Source of the DNA: a virus
Direction: 5' to 3' (one strand)
Length of the DNA stretch: 64,000 bases
Virus record (IMG/VR): IMGVR_UViG_3300009093_000043
Location: 1-64,000 of that record
Shown: positions 1 to 15,927 of the stretch, one piece after another
Position numbering within the stretch: the first letter of the stretch is position 1
Layout: each line of letters begins with the position of its first letter
Program-made: the position numbers and the translations under genes
The notes under the pieces: generated by a model
What the model was told of the DNA's origin: nothing
Databases searched by the model: none
Seen by the model: the letters and a program-made list of their open reading frames with translations, nothing else

Positions 1-54
1 CCGGTCGATGTCCGGGTAGTACTGAGCGAAGCGGGCGAGGTACAGCCGGACCAT
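1..54 (-). CDS. Partial gene, N terminus only
   Basis: An ATG at 54-52 opens a reading frame that runs out of the window with no stop (begins MVRLYLARFAQYYPDIDR). An AGG-containing weak ribosome site (cctcaggtc) abuts the start, and the gene begins 16 bases after the TGA of the Tad2-like gene, as expected for the next gene of the same minus-strand unit. Only 18 residues are visible, so no function can be given. Confidence 0.5.
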   Translation of the reverse strand, partial: MVRLYLARFAQYYPDIDR

Positions 55-70
55 GACCTGAGGTTTACTC

Positions 71-325
71 TCAACGCGAGAAGACTTCCCAGTCGTCCGC
101 GAGGACATCGGTCTGGGAAGCGAGCCACGGGATCAACTGGTTGCCCACGGTCTTCATGACGAGGAACGGGAGCCATGTCCCCTCGCATGGGTTGATCTCT
201 CGGACGCGGAACTCAGGATCTGAGTAGAGGTCGACGTGGCGAACCCACATCCCCCGACCGTTCCAACCCTTTCGGGTCATGCGCTCGCCCGCCTTCATCT
301 TCTCGACCGCTTCGCCGAAGGTCAT
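71..325 (-). CDS. DUF2829 / Thoeris anti-defence 2 (Tad2)-like protein
   Basis: This 84 aa protein has the layout of the DUF2829 family: an N-terminal TFGEAVEKMKAGERMTRKGW helix with WNGRGMW (residues about 3-27), a middle stretch ending VMK, and a C-terminal PWLASQTDVLADDW box (about 66-79). Family knowledge: phage Tad2 proteins of this fold sequester the cyclic ADP-ribose-type signal of Thoeris defence in the host cytoplasm. The length is normal for the family. Whether this copy binds a Thoeris signal is inference; many DUF2829 proteins are untested. The start is an ATG after a weak GGTAGG site. The gene diverges from the plus-strand gene at 355. Confidence 0.85.
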   Translation of the reverse strand: MTFGEAVEKMKAGERMTRKGWNGRGMWVRHVDLYSDPEFRVREINPCEGTWLPFLVMKTVGNQLIPWLASQTDVLADDWEVFSR

Positions 326-341
326 GGGCTACCCTACCGAA

Positions 342-348
342 GCGTAAG
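342..348 (+). promoter_or_regulatory. GCGTAAG motif upstream of gene at 355
   Basis: GCGTAAG ends 6 bases before the ATG at 355. It could act as a weak Shine-Dalgarno (TAAGG) or as part of a recurrent phage element. Confidence 0.35.
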
Positions 349-354
349 GGCCGG

Positions 355-969
355 ATGGCCACAGGGTTCACTCAAGACGTCGAAGATCTCAACGCCAAGC
401 TGCCCGAACTGAACGAGTTCGCTTGGAGGTGCGCCCGAGCCTTCGACATCTGGTGCAAAGACAACGAAGGGGATCCGCCCCTCTCCATTCCGCGACCCGC
501 TTCGCGACGGAAGGAGTCCCTCCGTCGCCTGAAGAAAGCCGAGGCGAAGGTCAAGGCGATCAAGGCGAAGCCGGCCAAGAAGCTGGAAGCCGAGCGCGAC
601 AAGGAGTACCGAGAGCGTCTGAAAGAGGCGGAGGAGTCTCTCCAGAAGGCCCAGGAAGTCGATCGTCGCTGCGCCGAGATGAAGCGTCGGGTCAACGCCT
701 GGCGTCCTTCGAGGAAGCTCTCCGGTCTGAAGAGGTTCATGCTCGATCAGCTCGGCATGAGCCGCTCTATGGTTCATTACTACCAGCGAGAGGTGAACTT
801 CTACTCGACGCGAAGCCCGATCTCCTTCTACCGCGCTGCGCTTCTGAAAGCCGCTCGGATCGAGATCCGATTCGCCAAGAAGGATCTGCAGAGAGAGAAG
901 GAGAATTGGGGCGAGGTGAGGAACGCGTACTTCGCGGCGCTGAACGCCAGCCTTCCTCGTCCGGCCTGA
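355..969 (+). CDS. Coiled-coil protein of unknown function
   Basis: A 204 aa protein that I do not recognise. Residues about 50-115 are rich in Lys, Glu, Ala and Arg in heptad-like order (for example KAEAKVKAIKAKPAKKLEAE), predicting a long charged coiled coil. The flanking segments contain Trp, Tyr and Phe and look globular. It has no signal peptide or membrane segment. It starts at an ATG preceded by AAGGG and ends with TGA four bases before the convergent stop of the lysozyme-like gene. It is the only plus-strand gene in the first 5.9 kb. Confidence 0.75.
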   Translation: MATGFTQDVEDLNAKLPELNEFAWRCARAFDIWCKDNEGDPPLSIPRPASRRKESLRRLKKAEAKVKAIKAKPAKKLEAERDKEYRERLKEAEESLQKAQEVDRRCAEMKRRVNAWRPSRKLSGLKRFMLDQLGMSRSMVHYYQREVNFYSTRSPISFYRAALLKAARIEIRFAKKDLQREKENWGEVRNAYFAALNASLPRPA

Positions 970-973
970 ATCC

Positions 974-1909
974 TCAGAGGTCTCGGGGCATCAGCGACTT
1001 CGCCATCGGAGCCGGCCACAGGTCCGGTCTCGCCCAGACGGCGAGTCGGGTCCTGTCGTAGCGATTCGAGCCGTCGCCCGGATCGTCCATCCAGTTCCCG
1101 TACCTTCGGGTTCCGAGGCTTCGGATCAGCTTCGCGGCGGTCTTCGCGGCGTCCGGATTCGACTGTCCGCGGAGACTCATGACGATCGGGTTGAGGACGG
1201 CCTTCGCGATTCCCGGCGCGTTCACGGAGAAGGCGTGGTACACGCACATCGCGAGTTCGATCTCCGGGGGAAGACGGGAGACGGGGATCCCGATGATCGA
1301 GTCGGGAGGCGGCTGAGGCTGGCCCATGAAGTCGAAGTACATCTCGTGTTCGTCGCTGGAGTTGCCCGCTGACAGCCACGCGCTCGCGAAGTCGGACTGA
1401 GCGGCATACGTCACCGGAAGCGAGAAGAGGTTGTAGAACCTCTCCGCCCAGGCCTTCGCTCGAAGCGAATCCGGACCCGCCTTCGGAACGTTCCCTCCGG
1501 TAGCTCCGCTGAACTCCAGTCGGATCGCGGCGCCTGGGACGAGGGCTCCGGTGGCCGAGATCCGAAGCTTCCCATCCGAGGTGAGCTTCCATCCGAGGCG
1601 GGTGAACTCCGCCGCGATCGGGGCGAAAGCCTGAGTCGCCCTCGAAGAGACGGTGAAGAGGAGGGAGAAGAAGTCGCCCTGGCTGAGGTCCTTCGGGCTG
1701 ACGGAGATGTTGTGGAGGATCCCCCCGCTCATTCCGCACCCGTCGTAGCTCTGAACCGTTCCCCAGGAACCCGCTTCGAGCTGACCCGCGAGGTAGACGG
1801 CTCGGTCGACGTGCATCGCCGGGTTCACCGGCTGGTCGATTCTCGGGCCGCCACGAGCGAGGTATCCGGAGAAGTTCTTGAACTGGACCCAGCGGCTTTG
1901 AACTGGCAT
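974..1909 (-). CDS. Putative lysozyme-like endolysin
   Basis: A 311 aa protein whose residues about 40-75 contain GQLEAGSWGTVQSYDGCGMS followed by GGILHN. This resembles the catalytic-Glu region of phage muramidase-like proteins, where a Glu is followed by a YDxxGxSxG strand; Glu46 would be the candidate acid. The rest is globular with no signal peptide, so release would depend on a holin, and a holin-like gene lies at 7253. The ATG is preceded only by gtagagtcgggg. Notably it lies in frame with the upstream gene, separated by one TAG and four codons. The lytic role is an inference from motif resemblance. Confidence 0.5.
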   Translation of the reverse strand: MPVQSRWVQFKNFSGYLARGGPRIDQPVNPAMHVDRAVYLAGQLEAGSWGTVQSYDGCGMSGGILHNISVSPKDLSQGDFFSLLFTVSSRATQAFAPIAAEFTRLGWKLTSDGKLRISATGALVPGAAIRLEFSGATGGNVPKAGPDSLRAKAWAERFYNLFSLPVTYAAQSDFASAWLSAGNSSDEHEMYFDFMGQPQPPPDSIIGIPVSRLPPEIELAMCVYHAFSVNAPGIAKAVLNPIVMSLRGQSNPDAAKTAAKLIRSLGTRRYGNWMDDPGDGSNRYDRTRLAVWARPDLWPAPMAKSLMPRDL

Positions 1910-1921
1910 CCCCGACTCTAC

Positions 1922-2497
1922 CTAGGTGAGCGCTTTCCTCACCCAGGCTTTCGCGTCGGTCAGCTTCGGGAAGTCTGGTGGGGAGTTCTTTCCCGTGAAC
2001 GCTTGGTCTTCCGATTCGAGGTGGATCGTGAAGATCTTCTCACGCTGGCGAGAGGAGCCTATGAACTCGCCGTCTCCGCGAGTGATGGTTCCGACCTCGG
2101 CGCCGTTGAGGAGGATCTCGATCGTGTTCCCGCCCGCGTTGCGGAACTCGATCCCCTCACCCTTCGTCTCAGCGACGAACTGGTAGAGCCCGCGGGAGGC
2201 GGCGGGGACGATCTTCTTCAGCTTCACGAGGGCTTCGAGTCGCTTTTCGAGCGAGGGTCCCTCCATTTGGACGTAGTCGGTCCCGTCGCGCTCGGCCAAG
2301 GTTCTACGGATCTCCATCGCTGAGAAGCGCTTCTTCGGGTCCTTCTTCGCGACGTCTTCGGCTGCGCTGAGGATCTCTTCGTCCGAGAACTTCCGAGCGA
2401 CCGGAGCGCCGGCTGACTTCAGTAGGGGGAGGAGGTGCTCCCGAAGCTCAGGCTTCTCGTGAGCGAGACGAATCAATTTCGATCTCAGCGGCTTCAT
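1922..2497 (-). CDS. Winged-helix-like hypothetical protein ending in TAG
   Basis: A 191 aa protein starting MKPLRSKLIRLAHEKPELRE, a basic helical N terminus of a kind frequent at the start of large-phage proteins. Residues about 38-105 (SDEEILSAAEDVAKK through AASRGLYQFV) look like a winged helix; the C terminus is beta-rich. It overlaps the upstream gene by ATGA, indicating coupled translation. Its stop is TAG, after which the same frame continues through four codons into the lysozyme-like gene without another stop. No specific function is assigned. Confidence 0.75.
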   Translation of the reverse strand: MKPLRSKLIRLAHEKPELREHLLPLLKSAGAPVARKFSDEEILSAAEDVAKKDPKKRFSAMEIRRTLAERDGTDYVQMEGPSLEKRLEALVKLKKIVPAASRGLYQFVAETKGEGIEFRNAGGNTIEILLNGAEVGTITRGDGEFIGSSRQREKIFTIHLESEDQAFTGKNSPPDFPKLTDAKAWVRKALT

Positions 2498-2889
2498 ACT
2501 TCCCTCTTAGGCCGAGCGTTCATAGACGTGAGAGCCTCGTCGAGGTTCTTGCACACGATGATCTCTAGGGGGGAGCCTCCTGCGCGAAGACCCATGCTCA
2601 CTACAGACGCGCCCATACGGACCGTAGGCGCTGTAAGGACGGCGTAGAGCTTCCGGAGACCGTTCTTCGACTGGAGATCGGTGAATAGCTCTACGGCTCG
2701 TTGGATCGCTTCCGGTCCGTAGGAGGTCGCCTTCTCGGCGAGGACCAACCAAACCCCGGAGCCCTTGTCGTTCGCTCGGTACCCCTTCACCATCTCTTCG
2801 ATGTGGGCGCCCGAGATCCGCCCGGAGATCGTCGTCTGGACGGCCCCCAGGGCGAATACGTAACGGGTGGAGGGCGCCTCAGGGAGCAT
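2494..2889 (-). CDS. Hypothetical protein
   Basis: A 131 aa alpha/beta protein (LPEAPSTRYVFALGAVQTTI at residues 2-21, GMRAGGSPLEII-type segments near the C terminus) with no motif that I recognise. It overlaps the next gene by ATGA. GGGGAG lies directly against the ATG at 2889, which is close for a ribosome site, so the start is uncertain. It follows the gene ending at 2913 by 23 bases and probably shares its transcript. Confidence 0.7.
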   Translation of the reverse strand: MLPEAPSTRYVFALGAVQTTISGRISGAHIEEMVKGYRANDKGSGVWLVLAEKATSYGPEAIQRAVELFTDLQSKNGLRKLYAVLTAPTVRMGASVVSMGLRAGGSPLEIIVCKNLDEALTSMNARPKREV

Positions 2890-2912
2890 CTCCCCGAGGC
2901 GGTTCTATAGGG

Positions 2913-3989
2913 TTACGAGGCCTTCGGGGACAAGGTGTCTCGGACGAAGTCGAGGGCCTTCGTCATCCCTTCGAGCGAGCGTTCGAACCAGAAGTCCTCG
3001 CCCTTCCCCTTGTCTCGGAAGACGATGATCTTCACCGGAGCGATCTTCCGGCCCCATTCCAAGTCGATCGTGAAGGTCGTCTCTCCGACGACTTTCCGAT
3101 CCGCGAGGCGTCGGCAGATCCGAGAGTCGGACCCAGTGAAGTCCGCACACCAGCCCGGATAGCACTGACCGATGGAGACGGATCCCCACGACGGGTTGTA
3201 GAGGTCGTCCGACGCGACCCGCTCCTTCACAAGCAAGAAGAGAGGATCCGTATTCTTGTACTCCTCCCACTCGGCTTCCCACTTCGCTTGGGCTGCGTCG
3301 CGCTCGTCGCGTCGGGCTTGCTCCTTCGGATCGACCCACTTCTCGACGAGTACGAGCTTCAACCCCTCGGGTCGGTAGGTCGTACGAGATACCACCTCCC
3401 GGATCTCCCTGTCCTCGTCTTCTTCGTCCTCGTTGAGGCAACGGGTCTCGAAGATCGTGATCTTCCCTTCGGAGATCTCCGGATCCTTCTCGTCGTCGTA
3501 CGCGTACATCTCCTCCGGGAACTCCAACTCGGCCCATCCCTTCTCCATCGGATCCGAGAAGTCGTAGAAGCGCGTCTCGTAAGGACACGCCCAGAAGCAG
3601 CCGTTCACGACGAGGAGCTTCAGCTCCGCGTTGAATGAGTACTGGACCCAGCAGAAGCCATGTCCCTTCTTTGCCGCTTCGGGAAGGAAGTCCTTCCGCT
3701 TCCCGGTGTCGAGTTCGATCACGGTCTGGCCTTGGTAGTCCGCCCCGCAGACGAGGTAGTCGTGTCCGTTCGGGTGTCCCTCGACCCAGGCGTAGGGGAA
3801 CGAGTGGTAGTTGCGATTGACGACCGCGATCGACTCTCCTGTGTCGACGCGGGTCAGCTCTCCGATCGTGTAGTTCCAGCACCCCGGCTTCGTCGCCTTC
3901 TCCGAGACCTGAAGGACGTAACGTCCGCTCGGGCTGGTGATGGGGTCTCGCTTCTTCAATTCGACGGGGGTCTCGATCGTCTCAGTCAT
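2913..3989 (-). CDS. Beta-propeller-like hypothetical protein
   Basis: A 358 aa protein beginning MTETIETPVELKKRDPITSP. I chose the ATG at 3989 because GGAG sits about 8 bases upstream; an in-frame ATG at 4067 lies inside the upstream hairpin. The N-terminal half has repeated Trp/Tyr strand patterns (GRYVLQVSEKATKPGCWNYT, WVEGHPNGHDYLVCGADYQG, VQYSFNAELKLLVVNGCFW) like WD/Kelch-type repeats. Residues about 150-230 are acidic and possibly helical, and the end contains several Cys. I see no catalytic motif. It lies downstream of the tRNA pair, separated by a strong hairpin. Confidence 0.75.
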   Translation of the reverse strand: MTETIETPVELKKRDPITSPSGRYVLQVSEKATKPGCWNYTIGELTRVDTGESIAVVNRNYHSFPYAWVEGHPNGHDYLVCGADYQGQTVIELDTGKRKDFLPEAAKKGHGFCWVQYSFNAELKLLVVNGCFWACPYETRFYDFSDPMEKGWAELEFPEEMYAYDDEKDPEISEGKITIFETRCLNEDEEDEDREIREVVSRTTYRPEGLKLVLVEKWVDPKEQARRDERDAAQAKWEAEWEEYKNTDPLFLLVKERVASDDLYNPSWGSVSIGQCYPGWCADFTGSDSRICRRLADRKVVGETTFTIDLEWGRKIAPVKIIVFRDKGKGEDFWFERSLEGMTKALDFVRDTLSPKAS

Positions 3990-4014
3990 GTTCAGTCTCC
4001 GGTGGAAGAAATGA

Positions 4015-4062
4015 GAAAGCCCCGGAGCCCACGAAGAGAATCCTCGTAGGTCCAGGGCTTTC
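4015..4062 (-). terminator. Long hairpin between tRNA pair and downstream gene
   Basis: The outer arms GAAAGCCC and GGGCTTTC enclose an inner ACGAgGA...TCtTCGT stem. On the minus strand the hairpin is followed by TCATTTCTTCC, which is only weakly T-rich. It lies 31 bases after the tRNA at 4093-4165 and before the GGAG/ATG of the next gene. It could end the tRNA transcript, attenuate the downstream gene, or mark a processing site. Confidence 0.6.
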
Positions 4063-4092
4063 CTCAAGAAGTTGTACAGAATCTACGTCACA

Positions 4093-4165
4093 TGCCCTCG
4101 ACTGGAATCGAACCAGCCTACACGCGGGGTTAGAAGCCGCTGTTCCGCCAATGAACTACGAGGGC
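4093..4165 (-). tRNA. tRNA with canonical anticodon CUA (amber-reading), copy 1
   Basis: The cloverleaf reads on the minus strand: acceptor GCCCTCG/CGAGGGC (7 bp), D arm GTTC...GAAC, anticodon arm GCGGC-TTCTAAC-CCCGC (four pairs and one C-C mismatch next to the loop), a 6-base variable region, T arm GCTGG-TTCGATT-CCAGT, discriminator A. No CCA is encoded. In the normal 5+7+5 arm, U33 is followed by CUA and A37. A one-base shift would give UCU (Arg), but that arm cannot pair. It is processed together with the second tRNA and Pth2. The amino acid carried is not predictable from this. Confidence 0.85.
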
Positions 4166-4173
4166 TCGATCGC

Positions 4174-4180
4174 TTTACGC
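4174..4180 (-). promoter_or_regulatory. GCGTAAA motif between the two tRNAs
   Basis: On the minus strand GCGTAAA ends 8 bases before the 5' end of the tRNA at 4165. Because a tRNA has no ribosome site, this occurrence favours a transcription or processing role for the motif. It is a single short match and could be coincidence. Confidence 0.3.
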
Positions 4181-4252
4181 CGCACCCGGTAGGATTTGAA
4201 CCCACGTACGTTCGCTTTAGAAGCGACTGCCTGACCGCTAGGCTACGGGTGC
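4181..4252 (-). tRNA. tRNA with canonical anticodon CUA (amber-reading), copy 2
   Basis: The minus-strand cloverleaf has acceptor GCACCCG/CGGGTGC, D arm GCCT...AGGC, anticodon arm TCGC-TTCTAAA-GCGA (four Watson-Crick pairs, with G-A at the top), a 5-base variable region CGTAC, T arm GTGGG-TTCAAAT-CCTAC, discriminator G and no encoded CCA. The 7-base loop places C34-U35-A36 after U33 and A37 behind it, so the anticodon complements UAG. It differs from copy 1 in every stem, so it is not a recent duplicate. It starts 6 bases after the Pth2 stop codon. Confidence 0.88.
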
Positions 4253-4258
4253 TGGGAA

Positions 4259-4570
4259 TCAACTGAAAGCCAAGGGGAGATCTCGAACTAGCTTCCGCCC
4301 GGTCGGGGCGATAGCGATAGCAGCGAGAACGTTCCCCAAGTCCGGCTCCTCGAACCGGGAGACCGGAACGCCTTCTTGGACGGCTCGATCTGCGAGCGCC
4401 GAGAGGGACGTCAGGTCCTCCGTTTCGAGGAGCACGAGGGTGTTCGAAGTCGTGTACCACTCGCGGTCGATCTCGCCGAACCCGGCTCCGAACTCTCGGA
4501 GAGCGTGGCACAGCATCGCGGCGCGGAGACCGGCGGAGAGGTCGCGACGGGTCACGAGGAAGAGCTTCAT
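4259..4570 (-). CDS. Pth2-type peptidyl-tRNA hydrolase
   Basis: A 103 aa protein matching the small Pth2 family (normally about 110-120 aa): N-terminal LFLVTRRDLSAGLRAAMLCH, where the family has a strand, RxD/KxD and a GK-type helix; a central TTSNTLVLLETEDLTSLSAL; and the C-terminal EEPDLGNVLAAIAIAPTGRK loop. Pth2 cleaves peptide from stalled peptidyl-tRNA in the cytoplasm. The ATG at 4570 overlaps the upstream TGA. It is followed after 6 bases by the two CUA tRNAs, a coherent translation-related unit. The family lysine-rich nucleotide-binding helix is reduced here, so activity is probable but unproven. Confidence 0.75.
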   Translation of the reverse strand: MKLFLVTRRDLSAGLRAAMLCHALREFGAGFGEIDREWYTTSNTLVLLETEDLTSLSALADRAVQEGVPVSRFEEPDLGNVLAAIAIAPTGRKLVRDLPLAFS

Positions 4571-5055
4571 GTCGCGACCCCGAGCCTCGCGGCCAGTTCG
4601 TCGCGTTCCTTCGTGAGCCGGGCGAGACGGTTCACCTCCTGGTCGCGGAGGAGCTTCCGCGACCGTTCGGCTTCTCGTTCCGCCTTCTCCTGAGCTTCCC
4701 TCTTCGCGGCTTCGATCTTCGCCAGGACCTGGGACTCGGCTTCGGCGAAGATCGCCTTCGCCTCGTTGTGGTAGGCTTCCTCTTCGCCGTCTTCGCAGTA
4801 GACCCAAGGATCATCAACCCGTAGATCTGCCTCGAAGCCGTCGATGAGGATGCGGTGTTCCCGAGGCTCGTACTCCGAGCCCGTCTCGTGAAGCCCGCCC
4901 CTCGCGAGGGATCCCGCGAGTGAGAGAACGATTTGTTCGCGATCCTTCGACGAAAGGACTTCGAAGAGCGCTTCGGTCTCGTCCTCGCGGTGTCCGCTAC
5001 AGCGGTCGTAGTTCCAGCCGTTCTTCCGGAAGGTGATCAGGACGTAGCGGCTCAT
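4567..5055 (-). CDS. Hypothetical protein with C-terminal coiled coil
   Basis: A 162 aa protein. Residues 1-95 are globular (MSRYVLITFRKNGWNYDRC, WVYCEDGEEEAY), and about 100-158 form a charged coiled coil (AEAESQVLAKIEAAKREAQE). The ATG at 5055 follows the upstream TGA by 3 bases, and its own TGA overlaps the Pth2 ATG, so it is translated in series with Pth2. I recognise no family. Confidence 0.75.
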   Translation of the reverse strand: MSRYVLITFRKNGWNYDRCSGHREDETEALFEVLSSKDREQIVLSLAGSLARGGLHETGSEYEPREHRILIDGFEADLRVDDPWVYCEDGEEEAYHNEAKAIFAEAESQVLAKIEAAKREAQEKAEREAERSRKLLRDQEVNRLARLTKERDELAARLGVAT

Positions 5056-5058
5056 GGC

Positions 5059-5511
5059 TCAGGCCGCCTTCCGACGCGCGGCCGATCGCTCGGCTCGTTC
5101 GGCCCGAGCCTTCACGTTCGCTTCCACGAGGTGAGCCTCGAAGGCGGCCCGCTCCTCCTCGGAGGGCTTCTCGGAGAGCCAGACCAGGACGGTCTCGGCC
5201 GACTCGGAAACGACTCCTACGGCCTGCAGAGCGTCGAGGATGCCATGGGCACTCGGGGTGTTCTCGGTCTTCCGCTCGGTCACCCAGTACCGGCGTCCGC
5301 GGAGGAAGGCGTAGGCGAGACCGGTCTCCCGGATCGACTCCTTCAGGTCCGAGTTGGTCCCCCAGAAAGAGGCCAGCTGTCGGAGGCGGGTCGGTTCGCT
5401 GACGGGCGTCGCCTTCTTGTATGCGACGCGCTCACGCGTGTTCGTCTTCTTGCTTTCGACGACGGTCGAGAGCTTCTTCTTCAGTCCCAGGATCTGTTCT
5501 TTCGTTTCCAT
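5059..5511 (-). CDS. Hypothetical basic protein
   Basis: A 150 aa protein beginning METKEQILGLKKKLSTVVES, with a helical basic N terminus and an Ala/Arg/Glu-rich C terminus (VEANVKARAERAERSAARRK). GGAG lies 9 bases before the ATG at 5511. The same frame remains open upstream to an ATG at 5616 except for two TAG codons (5590-5592 and 5518-5520), so in an amber-suppressing cell the protein could carry a 35-residue extension. It probably heads the unit that ends with the tRNAs. Confidence 0.75.
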   Translation of the reverse strand: METKEQILGLKKKLSTVVESKKTNTRERVAYKKATPVSEPTRLRQLASFWGTNSDLKESIRETGLAYAFLRGRRYWVTERKTENTPSAHGILDALQAVGVVSESAETVLVWLSEKPSEEERAAFEAHLVEANVKARAERAERSAARRKAA

Positions 5512-5623
5512 TGCGGTCTACTCCATCTGAGGTTTCGGGATCGTGTTGAGACGAAACCGAGACTTCGGAGGACCGCGAGCGGAACGAATCTACAGGTGGT
5601 GGTTCACGAGCGTCATGGTAACC

Positions 5624-5630
5624 CTTACGC
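5624..5630 (-). promoter_or_regulatory. GCGTAAG motif upstream of gene at 5511
   Basis: On the minus strand GCGTAAG ends 7 bases before an ATG at 5616 that begins the UAG-containing leader frame of the gene starting at 5511. It may mark the start of the tRNA/Pth2 transcript. Confidence 0.35.
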
Positions 5631-5659
5631 TTCGAACCGGCAAGAGGGGTCGATCATTT

Positions 5660-5893
5660 TCAGTATCGAGAGATCGCTCGGAGAGCGGCTTCACTCGGTT
5701 CCTCGTTCGGACGGATCGGCTCGATCACTTCTCCGGCCCTAGGATCTATGGCCGTAACCTGGAAGCCTCGGGCTCCGCAAGAGAGAAGGAGAAGACGCGC
5801 GGGGTCTCGCGAGAGCCAGCTCTCTACCAGCCCCCACTTCTCGATCTTGATCGAGGAAGGGCGTCTCGGGATTCGGGGGTCTGAGTCGCCCAT
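5660..5893 (-). CDS. Small hypothetical protein
   Basis: A 77 aa frame with an ATG at 5893 after a weak GAGGTC site, ending in TGA. The middle (IKIEKWGLVESWLSRDPARL, then GARGFQVTAIDPRAGEV) reads like a compact alpha/beta protein rather than an antisense artefact. I know no family. It diverges from the TM-protein gene at 5950 across a 56-base spacer. Confidence 0.55.
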   Translation of the reverse strand: MGDSDPRIPRRPSSIKIEKWGLVESWLSRDPARLLLLSCGARGFQVTAIDPRAGEVIEPIRPNEEPSEAALRAISRY

Positions 5894-5917
5894 GACCTCA
5901 AATTTAGAGGCTTGGGG

Positions 5918-5924
5918 GCGTAAG
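5918..5924 (+). promoter_or_regulatory. GCGTAAG motif upstream of gene at 5950
   Basis: GCGTAAG ends 25 bases before the ATG at 5950, which has its own GAGGAG ribosome site, so here the motif is not the ribosome site. It lies in the loop of a GGCTTG...CAAGCC inverted repeat. Confidence 0.4.
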
Positions 5925-5949
5925 ACAAGCCGAATCAGAGGAGAAACCG

Positions 5950-6414
5950 ATGGATCGCGTCTTCTGGCTGTTGGCGGTGGTGGTGGGAATCCTGTTCCTG
6001 ATCGAGTACGCTCGCGTCTACCTGAAGTGGAAGAAGGAGGAGCAGTACGCCCGAGAGATGAAGAGAGACAATTCCGAGTGGGTGAAGATCGTGAAGCTTC
6101 TCGCGGAACTGAATTGGATCTCCGATTCCGGCATGAGCAAGGAGACCCCCTACACCAGACTCTGGAGGAAGGAGGAGGGAGAGATCAAGTTGGAATTGGA
6201 GGTCTCAGGTACTTGGGAGAACCCTTCGGACCTGGTTCTCTGGGCCTGGGCGATGGAGGGCGAGGAGATGTGGGACACCAGTGTCTCCGTCGACTTCGAA
6301 GACCCGACTCAGATCGTCCCATATCTCCGCGACAACCTCCAGGACCGCGTCGATCGCGTCGCGAAGGTGGTTCTGGCTACCCGGCCTTCAGGACCGGCGT
6401 CCGAAGCGGCGTAG
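5950..6414 (+). CDS. Single-TM membrane protein
   Basis: A 154 aa protein with an N-terminal hydrophobic segment at about residues 5-20 (FWLLAVVVGILFLIEY) followed by a basic stretch (LKWKKEEQYAREMKR), consistent with a membrane anchor and a cytoplasmic C-terminal domain. The acidic C-terminal half has conserved-looking Trp residues but no recognised domain. GAGGAG precedes the ATG. It ends in TAG and overlaps the convergent gene at 6377 by 38 bases. Confidence 0.75.
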   Translation: MDRVFWLLAVVVGILFLIEYARVYLKWKKEEQYAREMKRDNSEWVKIVKLLAELNWISDSGMSKETPYTRLWRKEEGEIKLELEVSGTWENPSDLVLWAWAMEGEEMWDTSVSVDFEDPTQIVPYLRDNLQDRVDRVAKVVLATRPSGPASEAA

Positions 6415-6661
6415 CGAGTCGGGAGGGAGCTTCCGCGAGGTTCTCCTCCCACTCACAACAAGTCGAACAGTCGCACGGCTCGTCTTCCCAATCGTCCCAG
6501 ATGGACACGTAGGGATCGCCCTTGACCTGCTCGCGAGTAGCGATCTTCGCTCGAATCTCGCAGTGAGGGTCCCGGTCCTTCGCTCCGTTCGCCTTGTGAG
6601 GCTTACAGAACAAGCATCCGGCCCGTCGGTTCTTAGCCCGTCTTCTTTTGTGATGTGCCAT
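6377..6661 (-). CDS. Small basic CxxC protein
   Basis: A 94 aa protein beginning MAHHKRRRAKNRRAGCLFCK. The ATG at 6661 is chosen because GGAGG sits 5 bases upstream; an in-frame GTG 12 bases earlier lacks a site. The N terminus is strongly basic, with CLFC and later CEI and CDCSTCC cysteine groups, suggesting zinc binding and possibly nucleic-acid contact. Small proteins of this HKRRR...GCLxCK type are widespread and unnamed. It ends in TAG within the convergent gene. Confidence 0.7.
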   Translation of the reverse strand: MAHHKRRRAKNRRAGCLFCKPHKANGAKDRDPHCEIRAKIATREQVKGDPYVSIWDDWEDEPCDCSTCCEWEENLAEAPSRLATPLRTPVLKAG

Positions 6662-6992
6662 TCGATCCTCCACGAGCCGCCGTCAGCGGCGCGCTCATGG
6701 ATTGGATCTGGATCACATCTGAAGTTCGGCTATCGGCGGGAACGTGGGCCACGGGTCTCGTTACCCCTTCTCCCTCGTCGTCCATCTCGTTGTCGAAAGC
6801 GAGGTCGAGCTTCCGAGCCTCGGAGCAAGTTCGTCGACCTGGACAGCGTCCCAGAAGCATTCTCTTCGGGCAGACCACGCATCTTCGGGCCAGCTGAGCC
6901 TCGCGCTTCAGGAGGGAAGCGACAGGGAGGATCCCCGAAACGGAGTTTCGAACCGTCACGAGCGCTGCCGAGAATTCGGGATCCAGTGACAT
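6633..6992 (-). CDS. Hypothetical Cys-containing protein
   Basis: A 119 aa frame from ATG at 6992 to TAA, overlapping the next gene by 29 bases. Residues about 34-60 (ARRCVVCPKRMLLGRCPGRR, then TCSEA) hold a four-cysteine cluster that may bind zinc. The C terminus is Ser/Thr-rich and low in complexity. No family is recognised. A real gene is supported by orientation and continuity with its neighbours, but composition-based support is modest. Confidence 0.45.
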   Translation of the reverse strand: MSLDPEFSAALVTVRNSVSGILPVASLLKREAQLARRCVVCPKRMLLGRCPGRRTCSEARKLDLAFDNEMDDEGEGVTRPVAHVPADSRTSDVIQIQSMSAPLTAARGGSNGTSQKKTG

Positions 6993-6998
6993 TCAGCC

Positions 6999-7256
6999 CT
7001 ACTTGAGAGGGGGTCTTTTCATCCCCGGCCGCGAGGCCATACGAGTACGGCGTGATTCGAAGAGTAGCGAACGGGCCGCGTCCTTCGATTCCTTCGCGGC
7101 CTCCATCAGGGCATCCGTAGCGAGCGCGACGTCGATGCTCGCTTGGGAGGCGGTCTCCTGGATCGTGGTGCGGATCGTGTCGTCCTCGTCCCTCTTACGC
7201 ACCGTCTTGTGCGTAGCCGGACCAGTCGTTTCGATCACCACCACTCGCTTCGTCAT
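6999..7256 (-). CDS. Small hypothetical protein with tandem TAG/TGA end
   Basis: An 85 aa Thr/Ala/Arg-rich helical protein (DTIRTTIQETASQASIDVAL). It overlaps the upstream holin-like gene by ATGA. Its stop is TAG, followed one codon later by an in-frame TGA, so UAG suppression would add only two residues. Its function is unknown; its position suggests it is made together with the holin-like protein. Confidence 0.65.
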   Translation of the reverse strand: MTKRVVVIETTGPATHKTVRKRDEDDTIRTTIQETASQASIDVALATDALMEAAKESKDAARSLLFESRRTRMASRPGMKRPPLK

Positions 7257-7636
7257 GGGCGTCTCCTGATGTCGTCGCCAACCTCTCTCATCGTATCCCG
7301 AACCTCGATCAGGGTTTCCTTGTTCTGGTCCAAGAGCTGGGCGACGTTCGTTAGAGCCGTTGTGGCCCCTTTCGTGAGTTCGACCAACTGGGTCTGGTAG
7401 GCCTTCGCGTCATCGATTCGAAGCTGCTGAAGACGTTCGACGGTGACGGTGTGGGACCCGACCGAGGCGAGATGAGCCGCGCGCTCGGTGGTGAGGGTAG
7501 CCAGTAGTTCCTTCCGCTCCTTCGTACCTTCCTTCCAAAGGTACCAGATCACGACCCCGAAAACAATCGTGAGGATGCCGAGCACGCCGTACGAGGCGAG
7601 ACGCTCAGCTGAAGAGGTGACTAGTTGCTCGGGCAC
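7253..7636 (-). CDS. Single-TM holin-like membrane protein
   Basis: A 127 aa protein with one N-terminal TM segment (about residues 15-34, YGVLGILTIVFGVVIWYLW), then a charged KEGTKERKELL stretch and a coiled coil to the C terminus. This arrangement resembles BhlA/UviB-type phage holin-like proteins, although those are usually shorter. It uses a GTG start with GGAG about 8 bases upstream. Lysis function is inference; a membrane sensor or anchor is an alternative. It lies downstream of the virion block and upstream of the putative endolysin by several genes. Confidence 0.55.
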   Translation of the reverse strand: MPEQLVTSSAERLASYGVLGILTIVFGVVIWYLWKEGTKERKELLATLTTERAAHLASVGSHTVTVERLQQLRIDDAKAYQTQLVELTKGATTALTNVAQLLDQNKETLIEVRDTMREVGDDIRRRP

Positions 7637-7746
7637 TTCGCGGGCTCCAGAGAGGGTTGACGTTCCCCTTCCCTACTGGAACCCATCGAGTTCTAAGCGA
7701 GCTCACACCTTGGAATAAGCCTAGAATCTTAGCTTTCCCGGTGTTT

Positions 7747-8682
7747 TTATGCCAGCTCTGCCAACTCTTCGTGGCTCATGCCGAAGTCCTTTTGGAGCTT
7801 CGCATAGTTGAGCTTCACGGATCCGCCTTCGAAATCGAGGTATCTCGCCCCGGTCACCACCACGAGTCTCATGACGAAGGCGACCGGGAAGAGGGTGAAC
7901 GTTCCGAACCCGAGCGAGTTCATCATGAAGCCGAGAACGGACCCCGGAAGGCTCGCGAGGAGGTCGGAGAGAGTGATCGCTCCGGTTGCCGCGTCAAGCA
8001 TGTCCTTCAAGTGCCACTCGAACTCGACGACGTTGAACCAGATCCAGACGTAGATCCCGACCATGAGCGCCTTGCTGACGGTCGGAAGATTCTTCCGGAG
8101 CCAGACATCGAACTGGTCGACGTGGGGCTTGACATGGTCGTGGAGGAACTTCATGAACTTCGGAGAGAGCTTCACGAGCTTCTCGATCAGGGCGTTCAAG
8201 CTGATCATCTTCGCTTCGGGGAAGGTGTAGATCTTCAGAGGCCAGGTCTTGAAGGCGTGCTCCATGGCCTTTCGAAGATAGTGGTACCCTTCCTTCACCA
8301 GCTCCTTCAGTTTCCCGGGGAGTTGGTCGAGACTCTCGATCCCGATCAGCTTCTTGAGGTGGTCCCAGACGTTCGGGTTCGCCTTGATCGCTGAGGCGAT
8401 CTCCTTCATCTTCGTGATGAGGCTTCCGAGTCCTGCGACGCGAACCGAACCCTCGTCGGAGATCAGAGCCCCCTCGGCCATCGCTACGAGGATCTCTCGC
8501 GTCGAGTCGGACGAAGCCGTCTTCCCGGGGAAGACCTCCGAGCACACCTGAGAGGCGACTCGTCGAATCTCCATCCTCGCCACTACACGAGAGACCATCT
8601 CCGCGCGAGCCGCTACCCGCTGAGCGCTTTCGGCTCGACGGGTGACTCTCACGGACATCTCGTATAGGGCTTCGGAGTTCAT
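7747..8682 (-). CDS. Membrane-associated protein of virion block
   Basis: A 311 aa protein. The N terminus (residues about 8-45) is an Arg/Ala-rich amphipathic helix (VRVTRRAESAQRVAARAEMV); the centre is helical and basic; and the C-terminal third has two or three hydrophobic segments (ALMVGIYVWIWFNVVEF, LLASLPGSVLGFMMNSLGF, TFTLFPVAFVMRLVVV). ATGA overlap couples it to the 1037 aa virion protein upstream. It may be a virion-carried membrane protein or pore-related factor. No known family is recognised. Confidence 0.6.
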   Translation of the reverse strand: MNSEALYEMSVRVTRRAESAQRVAARAEMVSRVVARMEIRRVASQVCSEVFPGKTASSDSTREILVAMAEGALISDEGSVRVAGLGSLITKMKEIASAIKANPNVWDHLKKLIGIESLDQLPGKLKELVKEGYHYLRKAMEHAFKTWPLKIYTFPEAKMISLNALIEKLVKLSPKFMKFLHDHVKPHVDQFDVWLRKNLPTVSKALMVGIYVWIWFNVVEFEWHLKDMLDAATGAITLSDLLASLPGSVLGFMMNSLGFGTFTLFPVAFVMRLVVVTGARYLDFEGGSVKLNYAKLQKDFGMSHEELAELA

Positions 8683-11600
8683 GGGAGGACGAGCTGGATT
8701 CCGACGAGACCGCGGCAGGCGCTGGTGGAGCTGGTAGCGGGGACGTTCCGCCAGTTCAGAGCCTTACCGGTGGCGTTGTTGCGGAGGAAGACCTGGACCA
8801 AAACGGGGCACTTCCCTTCCCCGTTCAGGAAGAGGGCCCCCATAGGACCGAGATTGACCTCGACCTGGGCGTACTGAACTCCGCTCGCGGGGTCGATCCG
8901 ATCGAAGGTGTTCGGACCTGGGACGAGACATCCCGCCCCGTCGGACGCGGGGTCTTGCTTCGAGGGGCCCGACCCGTCCACTCGCCCGGCATCCATGAAC
9001 GTCGTGAGCCCGGGGACCTTCACCCCACAGGCAAGGCCGATCCCTCCGGGACCCGGACCGACGAAGGCGAAGTCCGAGAGCGTGACTCCCCAGAGACGGA
9101 GGATGATCGAGGTAGCTCCGACGTTCGCCGCCCCGGCGTCGAAGACACGCTGGTACGCTCGGGTGTTGGTAGCCGCCGAGTAGTCGGGACCGACGGGCTC
9201 GTAGCCCGTCGAGTAGTTGTCCTGGGGGTAGAGGCAGATACCGCGGGAGGGGAAGGGAGCCGTCACCCCATCCGTGTAGGGCGGGTTGCGCTCGGGAAGT
9301 CCCGCGACCTGGAGAGAGAGTGAGATCCCCGGGACCGCCGAGGTGACAAGGTTCTCGGCCGAGAGTCCGCCGAAGTAGTAGCCGACCCAGTTCGGATCTC
9401 CGCTCAGCGGACGAACCGGAACTGGAATCGCCCCGACTCCGTGAGGGAGACCCGGCCCGATCAGCTGACTGAGAAGCGTCGCGTCAGCGAGCGGGGCCCA
9501 GTTGAGGGGATAGCGGTAGATCTCATCGAGGAACCGCTCGTCGCTGTCCTTCGTGGTGTTCTGGACTGCGTTGGTGACGGCCGCCGGGTTCCCGTACTTC
9601 GGGAAGACGACACCGGTGACGTCCGCCATCGAGTGGAAGAGGATCTTCGGAGCGCCGCCCGCGGAAGATACCGCAGTGAGACCCGTCGCCGGAAGAGCCG
9701 GGAGCGGATACCCTGTCGACCCGTCCACGTTCTGAGGGCGACGAACGAAGACTCGAACCTTCGCGTTCTCGGTGAACGCGGGGGTGTTCGGATCGCCCTG
9801 GAAGGCGATCCGGTTCACGACGAGACCGACCGGGAGGTTCACGAACGCGGGGTCTCCGGGAGCCGGGTTCGTCGCCCCGCCGGCCAGAAGGTCCGCGAAG
9901 CCGAGTTCGATCCGCGAGCGCTTCGCCTTACCGAGACCTCCGGGAAGAAGGAAGGGGAGGGCTCCAGCGTTGATCGTGATCGTGGAGGTGTCGGGGGCCT
10001 CGGTTCCCTCGTAGCTGAACGAGGCGAGGGAGATGAAGACGGGGTTCTGGTTGAGAGCGAAGCTCCGCGGGTCTCCGAAGAGCGGGCCCGAGGTCGGGAC
10101 CGTGTCGTGGGACCGGTAGGAGGAGTTGAAGACGTTCGTGATCGCGAGATTGAGGGTCGTGAGACCACCGACCGGAGTTCCCGTCGCGGGGTTCAGCGGG
10201 ACCCAATAGTCCACGCCCGAGACCGTCGTCTTCTTTGAAGAGGTGAACCCGAACGTGTTCGTCGGACCGGGCATCGTCGGAACCGACAGCCCGTTCGGGT
10301 CTTCCTCGACCTCCGAGGAGTTCGTGGAGTACGTCGAGGAGATCGCGGGAGGCGAGGGGGTCGCGTTGATCAGGTTCGGGATCTCAGCCGCCCCCGACCA
10401 CGAAACGAGATTGATCGAGTAGACCTTGTCGGCCGTCGGGACGACCCCGCCCACGACGTAGGACTCGAAGAACTCCTCGCGGCGGAAGTGGACGAGGGCG
10501 TAGGAACCGTCTCGACGAAGAGCGCCAGTCGCTCCCACTGCGAGGACGAAACGGTGACGAAAGCGGGCGATCTGGATCGCCCAGTAGTCGGCCGTGAAGT
10601 CGTCGTACGCTCCGGCCTGGGGAACCGTTCCCGTCGAAGCCGGGGGGAGCGTGTTGAAGAAGCGGGCCGTCTCGTCGGTCGGGAGACGTGGGGTGTACTT
10701 CAGCCCGTTCGCTCCGGTGCTGTAGTCGTCGAGGTACGGAAGACGGTAGGCGAAGAAGTTGCCATTCGTGCCGATACCGCCGCGAGCGCTCGCGGTAGCC
10801 CCGAGAATCGGCATCCCGTTCGCCGTCGTGTTCGGAGAGAACGGGGTCGCGGAGGTGTCGGTGAGGAGTCGAACCTGACCCGCTCCCGGATTCGCCGTCG
10901 GAGCCGGTCCGCCGGTGCGGGAGGTCCCGGTCTGGATCTCGTTCAGATCGTACTGGCCCGCCGCCGCCCCGGGGAAGTCGTAGGGCGTCGGGGGACCGAA
11001 GGTCCAGATCCCGCCCGGATCACCGTCGCAGCCCGCTCCGCCGGTCCCGATGCCCGCGCCGAGCAAGAGAGCCGCCACGCAACGATTCGTGATGTCGGCG
11101 ATCGAAGTCGCGGCTACCGGAGCCGAGAGGTCTCCCGGAGCCCACTTCACGAGCGCGAGGACGCCTCGATCCGCCGGGGAGACGATCCCCGAGACGACGC
11201 AGGCGATGTTTCCGCCGACCGAGAGGGGAATCGTCCCCAGGGTCCGCCACGAGGGATACCCGTCCGCCGGAAGTGGGCCGCCTCCCGTGTTCATGGACAC
11301 GGTGGAGAACACGGCGTGGGCCTTTCCGATCCCTCCGCCCGTGTAGATGTTCGCCCCGTCCACGATGTTGAAGACCGGGTCGTTGTGGGGGTCGAAGCCC
11401 GTCGAATCGCGGGAGACCGGGGCGCGCCAGTAGTACGGGTAGATCGCCTCCGGATCGTTCACCGTCGAGAGATCGAGAGGACCGTCCCACAGCTTCAGGA
11501 TGCCCCAGTCCGGGACTCCAGAATTGGTCGAGCCCAGCCAAGGCGGGCCCGATGAACCGATAGGCCCGGGGGCGGGCGGGACGAGGGCCGCTAGCTCCCC

Positions 11601-11792
11601 GAGGGCACCCTCTACGTCTCCGGCGAGGTACCGCTGGAAAGCGTCCTGGATCGAGATCGCTTCGGCCGGGAGCGTGTTTACGATGCCTCCCGAGGCCACT
11701 TCCGAGGGCGTGACGGAAGAGGGGCTGACGGAGCCCGGGATTGCCGACCCGGCTCCGATCACGATCGTGGAAGGATCTACGCGACGCGGCAT
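8679..11792 (-). CDS. Large virion structural protein (1037 aa)
   Basis: A 1037 aa Gly/Pro/Thr/Ser-rich, beta-strand-dominated protein with no signal peptide, typical of phage tail or baseplate appendages. The N terminus (about 1-110) is Ala/Pro-rich; the rest has many aromatic strand patterns such as YPYYWRAPVSRDSTGFDPHN and VNRIAFQGDPNTPAFTENAK. No enzymatic motif is seen. It overlaps the membrane-associated gene by ATGA and begins 4 bases after the TGA of the 1095 aa gene. Exact placement (fibre, baseplate or adaptor) cannot be determined. Confidence 0.75.
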   Translation of the reverse strand: MPRRVDPSTIVIGAGSAIPGSVSPSSVTPSEVASGGIVNTLPAEAISIQDAFQRYLAGDVEGALGELAALVPPAPGPIGSSGPPWLGSTNSGVPDWGILKLWDGPLDLSTVNDPEAIYPYYWRAPVSRDSTGFDPHNDPVFNIVDGANIYTGGGIGKAHAVFSTVSMNTGGGPLPADGYPSWRTLGTIPLSVGGNIACVVSGIVSPADRGVLALVKWAPGDLSAPVAATSIADITNRCVAALLLGAGIGTGGAGCDGDPGGIWTFGPPTPYDFPGAAAGQYDLNEIQTGTSRTGGPAPTANPGAGQVRLLTDTSATPFSPNTTANGMPILGATASARGGIGTNGNFFAYRLPYLDDYSTGANGLKYTPRLPTDETARFFNTLPPASTGTVPQAGAYDDFTADYWAIQIARFRHRFVLAVGATGALRRDGSYALVHFRREEFFESYVVGGVVPTADKVYSINLVSWSGAAEIPNLINATPSPPAISSTYSTNSSEVEEDPNGLSVPTMPGPTNTFGFTSSKKTTVSGVDYWVPLNPATGTPVGGLTTLNLAITNVFNSSYRSHDTVPTSGPLFGDPRSFALNQNPVFISLASFSYEGTEAPDTSTITINAGALPFLLPGGLGKAKRSRIELGFADLLAGGATNPAPGDPAFVNLPVGLVVNRIAFQGDPNTPAFTENAKVRVFVRRPQNVDGSTGYPLPALPATGLTAVSSAGGAPKILFHSMADVTGVVFPKYGNPAAVTNAVQNTTKDSDERFLDEIYRYPLNWAPLADATLLSQLIGPGLPHGVGAIPVPVRPLSGDPNWVGYYFGGLSAENLVTSAVPGISLSLQVAGLPERNPPYTDGVTAPFPSRGICLYPQDNYSTGYEPVGPDYSAATNTRAYQRVFDAGAANVGATSIILRLWGVTLSDFAFVGPGPGGIGLACGVKVPGLTTFMDAGRVDGSGPSKQDPASDGAGCLVPGPNTFDRIDPASGVQYAQVEVNLGPMGALFLNGEGKCPVLVQVFLRNNATGKALNWRNVPATSSTSACRGLVGIQLVLP

Positions 11793-11796
11793 GAGC

Positions 11797-14700
11797 TCAA
11801 TCTCCGACCGTCAAGAGAAGGTTTCGCGTGCGGTACAAGGCTGCCGCCGTCCGAATCGAGGGCGAGTCGGTGAAGGCGAGCTTGTTGTCCTGGTCGAGTT
11901 CGGCGAAACGCGAGATCACCATGAGGATCAGTTCCCCACGGCGGAAGAGGAGGGTGTCCACGGCAGACCGTACGAGCATCGACTGGAACACCTTGTGGCG
12001 CGTCGGTCCGAAGAGGGGCTGGGCGATCGCGGTCGGCTTGTACCCGAGCGGGTTGGACGTGTCGTAGTAGACGCGGAACTCGGGGTCCACGACGGGGCCC
12101 CGTCCCGAGTCTCCGAGCTGGATGTCGTTCGTCCCGTCAACCTGGACGAAGGAGTGGAGGCTGAGGAGGCCCGTGTTCGAGGAGAAGTCCGAGATCGCGA
12201 TCTCCGCGAGCGCCGAGAAGTACCACTCCTTCGGAGTCGAGGCCGGAGGACGACCGGTCGCGATTGCGATCTGATCGAGAGGCGAATCGTACGGGAAGCC
12301 GAGGTCGGGAGATCCCTTACCAGCCTGACCTGACCAGATCTCCGTCGAGACCGCGATGGGCTCCACCGTGAGGGTCGTCGGGAGTTGGCCCGCGGGAATC
12401 GCTCCGGCCTGGACGCCTGCCGTCTGGGGAGCATTCGAGCGGTAGTAGATCGCCGTCTGGTAACCGGCCGCCCCGGCGTTCGGGACGGCGTCCTGGGGGT
12501 AGTAGTGGATCGTGATCAGCGTCTGGTTCGCGACGGCGACCGCGAGATTGATGAGACGCTCTGAGCTTCCGTAGGTCGTTCCGACCGCCGGGGCGACTCC
12601 GTTCGCCGTCATCGAGTCCGCGAAAAATCGACGCGGGGGATAGGCGGTCGAACCGGTACGAGTGACGATCGTGTCGACGACGATCGCTGCCCCCGGAGCC
12701 GACTTCTGTTCGAGCTTCACCTCTCGGTAGCCCTGGCGGAACTTCGGGTTCGGGATCCAGTTCGACTTCATCTCCGCCGGACGCTGAGTCGGGTCGTTCT
12801 CGACGATCGGACCGGCGTCGTAGCCCGTGTATCCTGAAGCGGAAGACGGGGTGAGCGTGATGTCGGGGGTCTGGGTGAGACCGGCTCCAGTCGGGTACGT
12901 GATCTCCAGCTCGATGAAGAGCCGACGCGTACTGCCGTTGTCGACCGCCGGGTCAGCGACGACAGGATGGTCCGCGGCCGTACCGCCGTCGTTCACGACT
13001 AGGTGATTCGCGTCGAGAGTGATCGTGAGGACGTTCGTCCCGACTCCAACCACCGAGCTGAGCTGGGTGGACTGGTTGATCGGAGAGACGCTGTGGCCGT
13101 CGTCGTGGTAGACCGAGAGGACGTCGGTTACCTTCGTACCAGCGGGCCAGAAGCTCGCGACGGCCTGGTTGGCGACGTCCGGAGTCGTCCAGTTCTGAAG
13201 CGTCGTCGGGTTCAGGGCGCCCGCCCCAGAGAAGGTGAACGTGACCTGATCGCCCTCGCACCACGAGAGGGCCGAGGGAGGCGCCTTCGTGACGACGATC
13301 CCGGTAGGATGGGACCCCGTCGGGAGAACTTCGAAGACGACCCGCTCCACGACCGACTGAGCGCCGAAGCGACGGGCGATGTGGTCGTAGTTGCGAACGT
13401 TGTCCCCGCGAAGAGTCGTACCGGAAGAAGGCGGAGCGCCTCCTTGGCCAGCGAGGCGTCCCACCTCGTCGCAGAGGAACGGGTAGGTGGACTGATCGCC
13501 CGAGCCGTTTCCGATCGTCGTGTAGTCGGAACCGTCGACCTGCCACGTCGCGGTCTTCTTGTCGAGGAGGCTCTGGGTTTGGTACTTCAGCTCGCTCCCG
13601 AAGTCGAAGCCGGGAGGAGTGACGTGGCGTCGAAGATCCAGAACGTCCGTAGCGGCGATGATGTCGGCGAAGAGACCGTCCGGACGATCGGACTTTCCCG
13701 AGGCGATCAGGTACGGACCCGAGGCGTTGAGGTTCCCGTTCGGGAAGTTGTTCGCGTGAGCGACAGGAAGGCCGCCGTTCGCGTTCGCGACGGGCGAGAA
13801 GCCTCCGGTCAGCGTCGTGTCGTTTCGGCGGAAGACGAAGGCGATCGGAATCGCGTAGACGAAACCGTCCACCGTCCCGAGCGCGAAGGCCGAAGCCTGG
13901 GTCCCGTTCCCCGCGATGTAGAGGCCGCCGTCTTCGAAGCCGTACGCCGAGGCGTCCGAGTTCCCCGTGACCGTCGTCGTGTTCGCCGGAACGAACGGGT
14001 ACGTAGCGATCGGGGCGCCTTGCGTCCCCTGGGCGAGGACGTTCGTGTTCGAGAAGCCGTCGGGCTGGGTCTTCGGATTGATCCCGCCTCCGCCGGAGGA
14101 CGAGAAGACGCGGATCCTGTACTGGACCTGGACACGCTGAGCGGTCTCGATATTGAGGACCGGATCGGTGATGACGTCGGGGAGCGCGACTCCGAGCGGG
14201 CTCGTCACGTTGCCGTGGCGGTAGACGGTGCTCTGGGAAGGCTTGTTCGCGCGGTTCGCGCCTCCAGCGAAGGTCGCACCGCTGAGGACGATCGAGTTCG
14301 CGATCGCCTGGGTGCGGGAGATCGCGATCGAGTTCCCGGCGGTCCCGCCGAACGTCGCGCTCGCCGTGATCTGAGCTGTCCCGAATGTGTTCGCCGCTAC
14401 GAAGTTCGGCGACAGGCCGTTCGCAGGGTTGTTGATCGCGTTCGCGAGGTTCGTAGCCGTGATCGAGGAGTCGCCTCCGATCGCGAACCCCGTCGGTCCG
14501 CCACCGTTCGCCGTGAAGACGACGAGAGGGCCGCCCGCACCAGTCGCGTCGATCGTGACGGTGTCGCCCGCGGAGACCGTCTGAGGAGACTCGATCGTGA
14601 TCGTAGCCGCTGCGCGCGGGCTAGGAGCGACGAGGGTCCGCCAGACCTCCAGGAAGACGAAGTCCGTGCGCTTCACGTCCGGAGCCGCGCCCGAGGACGC

Positions 14701-15084: not shown

Positions 15085-15148
15085 GTGGTCGTCGTAGTAG
15101 CGCTTGTCTCTGAGAGGAGGAGGTCAGAGCGTTCGGAGCCACACTCCG

Positions 15149-15781
15149 TTAGAAGGTCAACCGCCAGGTGATCGTCAAGATCGAAGTGTTCGGCTTCGAG
15201 ACGACCGAGAAGGTGAGGTAGTTCGCCTCGATGTCGTAGAGGGTGAGGTCGATCGTCGGGTCGTACGTCGGGAAGACCGACGGGACCGGGTTCGTGACAA
15301 GGGGGTTGAGGCTCTTCGTCCTCATGAGACCCATCTCGTTCAGCGGGCCGACCGCTTCCGACTCGCCGAAGATCGTGGTGAAGTCGACGATGTTCGTGGG
15401 AACCGCAGAGACCGCTCCGGCCTGGTTGCGGAAGGTCGTGCTGGAGAAGGGCTTCCGCGCGATCTCCGCGTTGAGGTGGCGCTGGCGCGGGTCCGGCGCG
15501 TCGGGGTTGAGGAGAGGTCCGGTCGCCCCGGTTCCGACCGCGAGCATGGTGAGACCCGAGGTCCCGGTCGAACCCGCCGCGAAGAGCATCGCCGCCAAGA
15601 CGCCTCCGTCACGGGTGATGATGTTGTCCAGCTCGCGGTAGTCCTGGATCTCTCCAGTCTTCGCGTCCTTCACTTCGATGAAGAACTGACCCCGAGCGCC
15701 CAAGATCATGTCCTGGTAGTGGGAGTTCAACCCGAACTTGAGGCCTTGGCGGGCGCGCTTTACGGATTCTCTAGCTCTCAC
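15149..15781 (-). CDS. Virion-type structural protein (210 aa)
   Basis: A 210 aa protein starting at GTG, with GGAG 5 bases upstream. A basic N-terminal helix (RARESVKRARQGLKFG) leads into beta-rich sequence, including GQFFIEVKDAKTGEIQDYRE, a Gly/Thr-rich loop (GSTGTSGLTMLAVGTGATGP) and a C-terminal strand pair ending LTITWRLTF. This pattern is typical of small tail or baseplate components. It is separated from the 1095 aa gene by 64 bases and diverges from a small plus-strand gene. Confidence 0.65.
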   Translation of the reverse strand: MRARESVKRARQGLKFGLNSHYQDMILGARGQFFIEVKDAKTGEIQDYRELDNIITRDGGVLAAMLFAAGSTGTSGLTMLAVGTGATGPLLNPDAPDPRQRHLNAEIARKPFSSTTFRNQAGAVSAVPTNIVDFTTIFGESEAVGPLNEMGLMRTKSLNPLVTNPVPSVFPTYDPTIDLTLYDIEANYLTFSVVSKPNTSILTITWRLTF

Positions 15782-15927
15782 GGTGTCTCCGTCTCTTCAT
15801 AGGAGCGGTAGCGCGGCCATGATTTGGCCACGTAGACGTTACCGGACTCGCTGAGGAAAAACGGACCTGTAACCCCGAGAGGTGGAATTCGATCGATGAG
15901 ATCTTTCCTTCAAGTACCATAATCTCC

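Follow-up and report, generated by a model that had tools for sequence, protein, structure and literature searches.

Peptidyl-tRNA hydrolases (PTH) recycle peptidyl-tRNA, and in the 64,000-nucleotide stretch of phage DNA analysed here (positions 1 to 64,000 of the IMG/VR record IMGVR_UViG_3300009093_000043, hereafter the window) a gene of the PTH2 family directly precedes two tRNA genes with the amber-reading anticodon CUA. Phages that recode UAG (code 15: crAss-like and Lak phages) likewise encode their own CUA suppressor tRNA in hosts with an apparently standard code; unlike in these phages, UAG still terminates in the 97,639-base virus record that contains the window (G000), no recoded gene was found there and the tRNAs are tied to PTH2. 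According to the accessible portions of the reports, PTH2 is already known from jumbo phages (PMC7824862), and the jumbo phages XacN1 and Atu_ph07 resemble G000 in having both peptidyl-tRNA hydrolase genes and suppressor tRNAs, the two being mentioned separately in those portions (PMC5852040, PMC6102473). XacN1 has two suppressor (CUA) genes per terminal repeat (PMC5852040), and the authors of the Summit and XacN1 genomes found no targets for their suppressor tRNAs (PMC9022506, PMC5852040); the XacN1 PTH2 gene examined here has no tRNA within 6 kb. The cluster C mycobacteriophages (Bixzunavirus, Myrnavirus) resemble G000 in that PTH2 is followed by a CUA tRNA, within 130-310 nt, but their pair lies inside an array of many tRNAs (with a tmRNA in C1), whereas that of G000 stands alone and has two CUA tRNAs. 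PTH2 in the cluster C array has been recorded, suppressor tRNAs not being mentioned in the accessible portion of that source (PMC5966550). Theta ribozymes, like PTH2, are enriched at phage suppressor tRNAs (PMC10879173), but they are ribozymes whereas PTH2 is an enzyme gene, and no Rfam ribozyme match was obtained beside the two tRNAs of the window at a permissive threshold, in a library that may not include theta ribozymes. A link of PTH2 to suppressor tRNAs was found neither in the accessible portions of PMC7824862, PMC5966550, PMC5852040 and PMC6102473 nor in the other literature searched; within that literature, which covers phage stop-codon recoding only partly, the unit of PTH2 and stop-reading tRNA is unreported.

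The central elements of the locus in the window are the following:
4259..4570, minus strand: PTH2-family peptidyl-tRNA hydrolase gene, 103 aa (PF01981, fold)
4181..4252, minus strand: T1, tRNA with anticodon CUA and discriminator G73 (ARAGORN, Rfam)
4093..4165, minus strand: T2, tRNA with anticodon CUA and discriminator A73 (ARAGORN, Rfam)

Judged from their sequences, T1 and T2 are most likely amber suppressors. The two good cloverleaves described in an earlier note on this DNA were both called by ARAGORN and exceed the Rfam tRNA cut-off of 29 bits (T1, 59.1 bits, E 3e-10; T2, 46.4 bits, E 1e-6). The spacing from D arm to anticodon bears out its placement of CUA after U33, at positions 34-36 of a 7-base loop in T1 (UUCUAAA) and T2 (UUCUAAC), so that Arg-UCU is not supported, and given this register and the good scores both Arg-UCU and pseudogene identity were rejected, the covariance-model assignments named in the note as counting against its reading. 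Of the standard 5+7+5 anticodon arm described there only the loop holds, as the stems comprise 4 bp because one end pair is open in each, pair 27-43 in T1 (G.A mismatch) and pair 31-39 in T2 (C.C mismatch). Mutations at 27-43 are said to enhance first-position wobble, to go by the title of a 1994 study by Schultz and Yarus. Anticodon stems of 4 bp make up 5.6% of bacterial tRNAs (PMC13092985). T1 and T2 are the sole tRNAs of G000. In position T1 is orthologous to the CUA tRNA of G001, a related 76-kb virus whose large proteins are 62-77% identical to those of G000, and its alignment score against that tRNA is 31 vs 11 against T2; T1 and T2 are therefore not recent duplicates, in agreement with the earlier note, and a recent tandem duplication was rejected. 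The view that two amber tRNAs at once are unusual was only partly right, pairs of CUA tRNAs being present near PTH2 in seven further loci (L055, L073, L134, L172, L200, L203, L207) and XacN1 having two suppressor genes per terminal repeat. The label "Pyl" is given by ARAGORN to CUA anticodons; Pyl genes did not turn up in the families scanned, although no search aimed at them was made.

The earlier note covered the tRNAs only, missing the PTH2 gene directly upstream and the recurring order of helper protein, PTH2 and suppressor tRNA. The PTH2 gene ends 6 bases from T1, and its ATG shares bases with the stop codon of the preceding open reading frame (ORF). In G001, the order PTH2 then tRNA(CUA) is the same, with 8 bases between them and a PTH2 that is 80% identical to that of the window.

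A survey of 155 IMG/VR loci and the window, grouped into 108 PTH2 clusters at 80% identity, was based on stretches of usually 6 kb on each side of PTH2, and 99 of the 108 clusters had any tRNA. In 73/99 clusters the tRNA closest to PTH2 carries a stop anticodon, vs 16/382 of the remaining tRNAs of these stretches (odds ratio 64, p 7e-48), and clustering at 50% identity gave 22/31 vs 3/93 (p 3e-14), such clusters being a partial phylogenetic correction, ARAGORN anticodon calls being imperfect and IMG/VR contigs often being fragments. Among control viral tRNAs only 2/118 had a stop anticodon. Where loci contained several tRNAs, the suppressor was nearest to PTH2 more often than expected by chance, the suppressor share decreasing with distance from PTH2 (56% up to 300 nt, 35% from there to 1 kb, 14% between 1 and 2 kb, 3% farther away); within 2 kb, 74/76 suppressors were on the PTH2 strand, and in 39/99 loci suppressors were the sole tRNAs. 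Since all three stop anticodons were found (CUA 78, UUA 8, UCA 3), PTH2 is linked to the reading of stops and not to a single tRNA lineage. The anticodon stem is open at an end pair, as in T1 and T2, in 35/89 suppressors vs 73/379 sense tRNAs (p 1e-4). A weaker reverse test agrees: of 16 loci with a CTA tRNA, 3 have PTH2 within 3 kb of it, vs 0/140 for sense tRNAs. We regard a functional coupling of PTH2 and stop-reading tRNAs as highly probable.

The linkage extends to named phages and large genomes, including Myrna, ScoobyDoobyDoo, Grungle and Cane17 (CUA tRNA 130-310 nt after PTH2), an uncultured phage of 485 kb (UUA tRNA 33 nt after PTH2) and pT24, CBB, GAP32, XbC2 and an Erwinia phage (CUA tRNAs within ~4 kb of PTH2). 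Two jumbo-phage contigs of IMG/VR have an opal tRNA 0.3 kb from PTH2, almost all of the remaining 35 tRNA matches being 37-60 kb away. Near PTH2 in L176, L183, L195, L201 and L214 there are tRNAs with the loop TTTCAAC, for which ARAGORN prints 4-base or Glu anticodons; they resemble opal (UCA) readers whose anticodon stem is irregular, called in another register. A second class near PTH2, called Ile-AAT by ARAGORN, has a 9-base anticodon loop with the core TAATGA (L395:4784-4980; L067, L071, L072, L098, L112, L113, L114). Several apparent exceptions to the stop-anticodon rule belong to these two classes. Directly upstream of the phage PTH2 in L146 (4975-5336) are over-long or intron-bearing tRNA-like pieces. 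The tmRNA was rejected as a general partner of PTH2 for its rarity, being detected in 3/108 clusters by ARAGORN and in L079 by Rfam; in that locus (L079:4548-4902), where PTH2 and the helper are present but tRNAs are not, it lies ~1.1 kb upstream of PTH2.

The window protein scored 23.9 bits against Pfam PF01981 (cut-off 23) and 22.5 bits, just below, in a six-frame genome search, its G001 counterpart scored 27.3 bits, and the phage PTH2 falls far short of the NCBIfam Pth2 equivalog cut-offs. The AlphaFold model of the window protein (pLDDT 98.1) gave best Foldseek matches that were all PTH2, and the phage-family profile matches solved archaeal and human PTH2 chains. Compared with archaeal and eukaryotic PTH2 (2zv3, 3erj, 1q7s, 1xty), the phage protein is alike in fold (TM 0.82 to archaeal PTH2) but differs in its ~24% identity, shortened loops and active-site motifs, the lysine of GKxAAQ never being present (Y, L or Q instead) and DAGxT being replaced by EPD. 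In an alignment of 43 phage members R8, H22, W38, E75 and P76 do not vary and D77 hardly does. As both the GKxAAQ lysine and DAGxT are absent, the protein is classed, from profile and model, as a divergent PTH2-fold subfamily and putative rather than proven hydrolase. Two pattern scans detected only two relatives in cellular genomes, both metagenome-assembled. Tenacibaculum phage pT24 (L046:5956-6900) and Xanthomonas phage XacN1 (L051:5443-6294) encode fusions of PTH2 with an HD-like domain, the domain order of one being the reverse of the other, and L140 has a similar protein, standing alone, after PTH2.

Around the PTH2 gene and the tRNAs, three further features were recognized:
5059..5511, minus strand: helper protein, 150 aa, motif R-x4-AY-x2-LRG (profile, AlphaFold)
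4567..5055, minus strand: ORF of 162 aa between helper and PTH2 (ORF list; no Pfam match)
4012..4066, minus strand: hairpin with T-rich tail, 3' of T2 (fold z-score -5.0, terminator-like pattern)

A helper profile built without the window member matches that member at E 2.8e-12. The family is present within 3 kb of PTH2 in 52/108 clusters, within 1 kb in 47 of these 52, and 44 of 53 helper matches belong to loci whose nearest tRNA is a suppressor; the 179 control loci gave no match. Its AlphaFold model is all-helical (pLDDT 95.8), and no relatives were detected in Pfam, PHROG or PDB, the fold having no significant PDB match. The 162-aa ORF is probably co-transcribed, and the hairpin probably ends the transcript of the tRNA locus, a terminator-like pattern of this kind having a chance expectation of 1.3 per region.

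Helper protein, PTH2 and one or two stop-reading tRNAs may thus be viewed as a conserved phage cassette, and the function that we favour, tentatively, is recycling: the tRNA would read UAG, and the predicted PTH2 activity would cleave peptidyl-tRNAs that drop off. T1 and T2 would be charged by host synthetases and would compete with host RF1 to decode UAG; readthrough and stop reading by loose-stem tRNAs would cause more ribosomes to abort and shed peptidyl-tRNA, and phage PTH2 could hydrolyse these products, keeping the scarce suppressor tRNA in circulation and limiting toxicity. In a more general form, which we hold possible but more doubtful, the remodelled-site PTH2-fold protein, the helper and the stop-reading tRNA would be a phage-specific system that diverts stops from host release factors in standard-code phages, by readthrough with peptidyl-tRNA recycling or by tRNA-based termination. 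Several points weigh against recycling. The lost lysine, the strongest ground for caution about the phage enzyme, leaves hydrolase activity unproven; the tRNA that holds the peptide after readthrough is not necessarily the suppressor; G000 yielded no readthrough target; and 13/16 amber tRNA loci had no PTH2 nearby, so that suppression alone needs no PTH2, a matter on which the main survey, being seeded by PTH2 similarity, is little informative. Suppressor tRNAs of non-recoding phages have so far been without clear purpose, and linkage to one enzyme family, whichever the stop codon, provides a partner and a helper that can be assayed with the tRNA. The cassette could reveal how phages manipulate translation termination and would offer natural suppressor-plus-hydrolase pairs for genetic-code work.

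That the tRNAs instead allow in-frame stops within genes of the phage itself to be read through would fit four relatives that have TAG within the PTH2 gene itself alongside CUA tRNAs (L166, L192, L200, LR756501), yet we consider it unlikely, since G000 and G001 have no conserved in-frame TAG, the sole internal TAG in their comparison being at the unconserved end of one alignment. Genome comparison indicates that UAG is an ordinary, working stop in G000, upholding the view in the earlier note that UAG remains a normal stop and supporting amber-reading tRNAs without UAG recoding: TAG ends the 1,725-aa ORF of G000 (16186-21363), whose homologous G001 frame ends in TGA, and the 1,142-aa baseplate protein of G001 has a TAG stop where its G000 homologue has TGA. 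With a simple home-made gene caller, TAG made up 12% and 15% of stops in G000 and G001, respectively, and in-frame coding-like sequence was in no excess after TAG-ended over TAA-ended genes. UAG recoding (code 15) in G000 is not supported by these comparisons. A release-factor gene, which the earlier note had proposed to look for, was found in neither G000 nor G001. At 974-2497 (minus strand) of the window, ORFs of 191 and 311 aa in one frame are separated by a single TAG and few codons, and may be a readthrough pair or just adjacent genes. Candidate programmed readthrough targets, among them 2497-1922 with 1909-974 after it in the same frame, were rejected as they had no family support and TAG showed no excess over TAA. 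A survey-wide test for conserved in-frame stops was set aside as too noisy, since its alignments ran past gene ends and into shadow frames.

Counter-defence is a rather improbable alternative, in which PTH2 would clear peptidyl-tRNA from ribosomes stalled by host toxins that cleave or modify tRNAs, with the CUA tRNAs as decoys, or as replacements that the toxins miss. Iyer et al. (2021) propose PTH2 rescue after tRNA cleavage for jumbo phages (PMC7824862) and Pth detoxifies acetylated tRNA in a toxin system of M. tuberculosis (PMC9241777), but such a role predicts no preference for stop over sense anticodons. A handling of stops that is independent of release factors would account for the pairing with any stop anticodon, the weakened anticodon stems and the retention of the standard code: the tRNA would take over the chain at the stop and, its anticodon stem being weak, readily fall off, and PTH2, possibly assisted by the helper, would release the peptide, so that tRNA and PTH2 stand in for termination or act in rescue if host release factors run short; we nevertheless judge this improbable, as efficient suppressors normally go on elongating, direct support was not found and the active site of the phage PTH2 is altered. 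Uncoupled hitch-hiking, by which PTH2 and tRNAs would adjoin as tRNA-related genes moving in islands, agrees with some PTH2 genes lying inside large tRNA arrays but is very unlikely given a proximity specific to stop anticodons, with the suppressor share at 3% beyond 2 kb, and suppressors as sole tRNAs in 39 of the 99 loci.

Regarding other features of the phage, DNA similarity to known phages was not detected for window positions 1-20000. A large protein encoded at 43571-45742 (minus strand) has a Tet/JBP 2OG oxygenase domain and weakly matches a nucleotide kinase, which suggests that G000 may have modified DNA bases.
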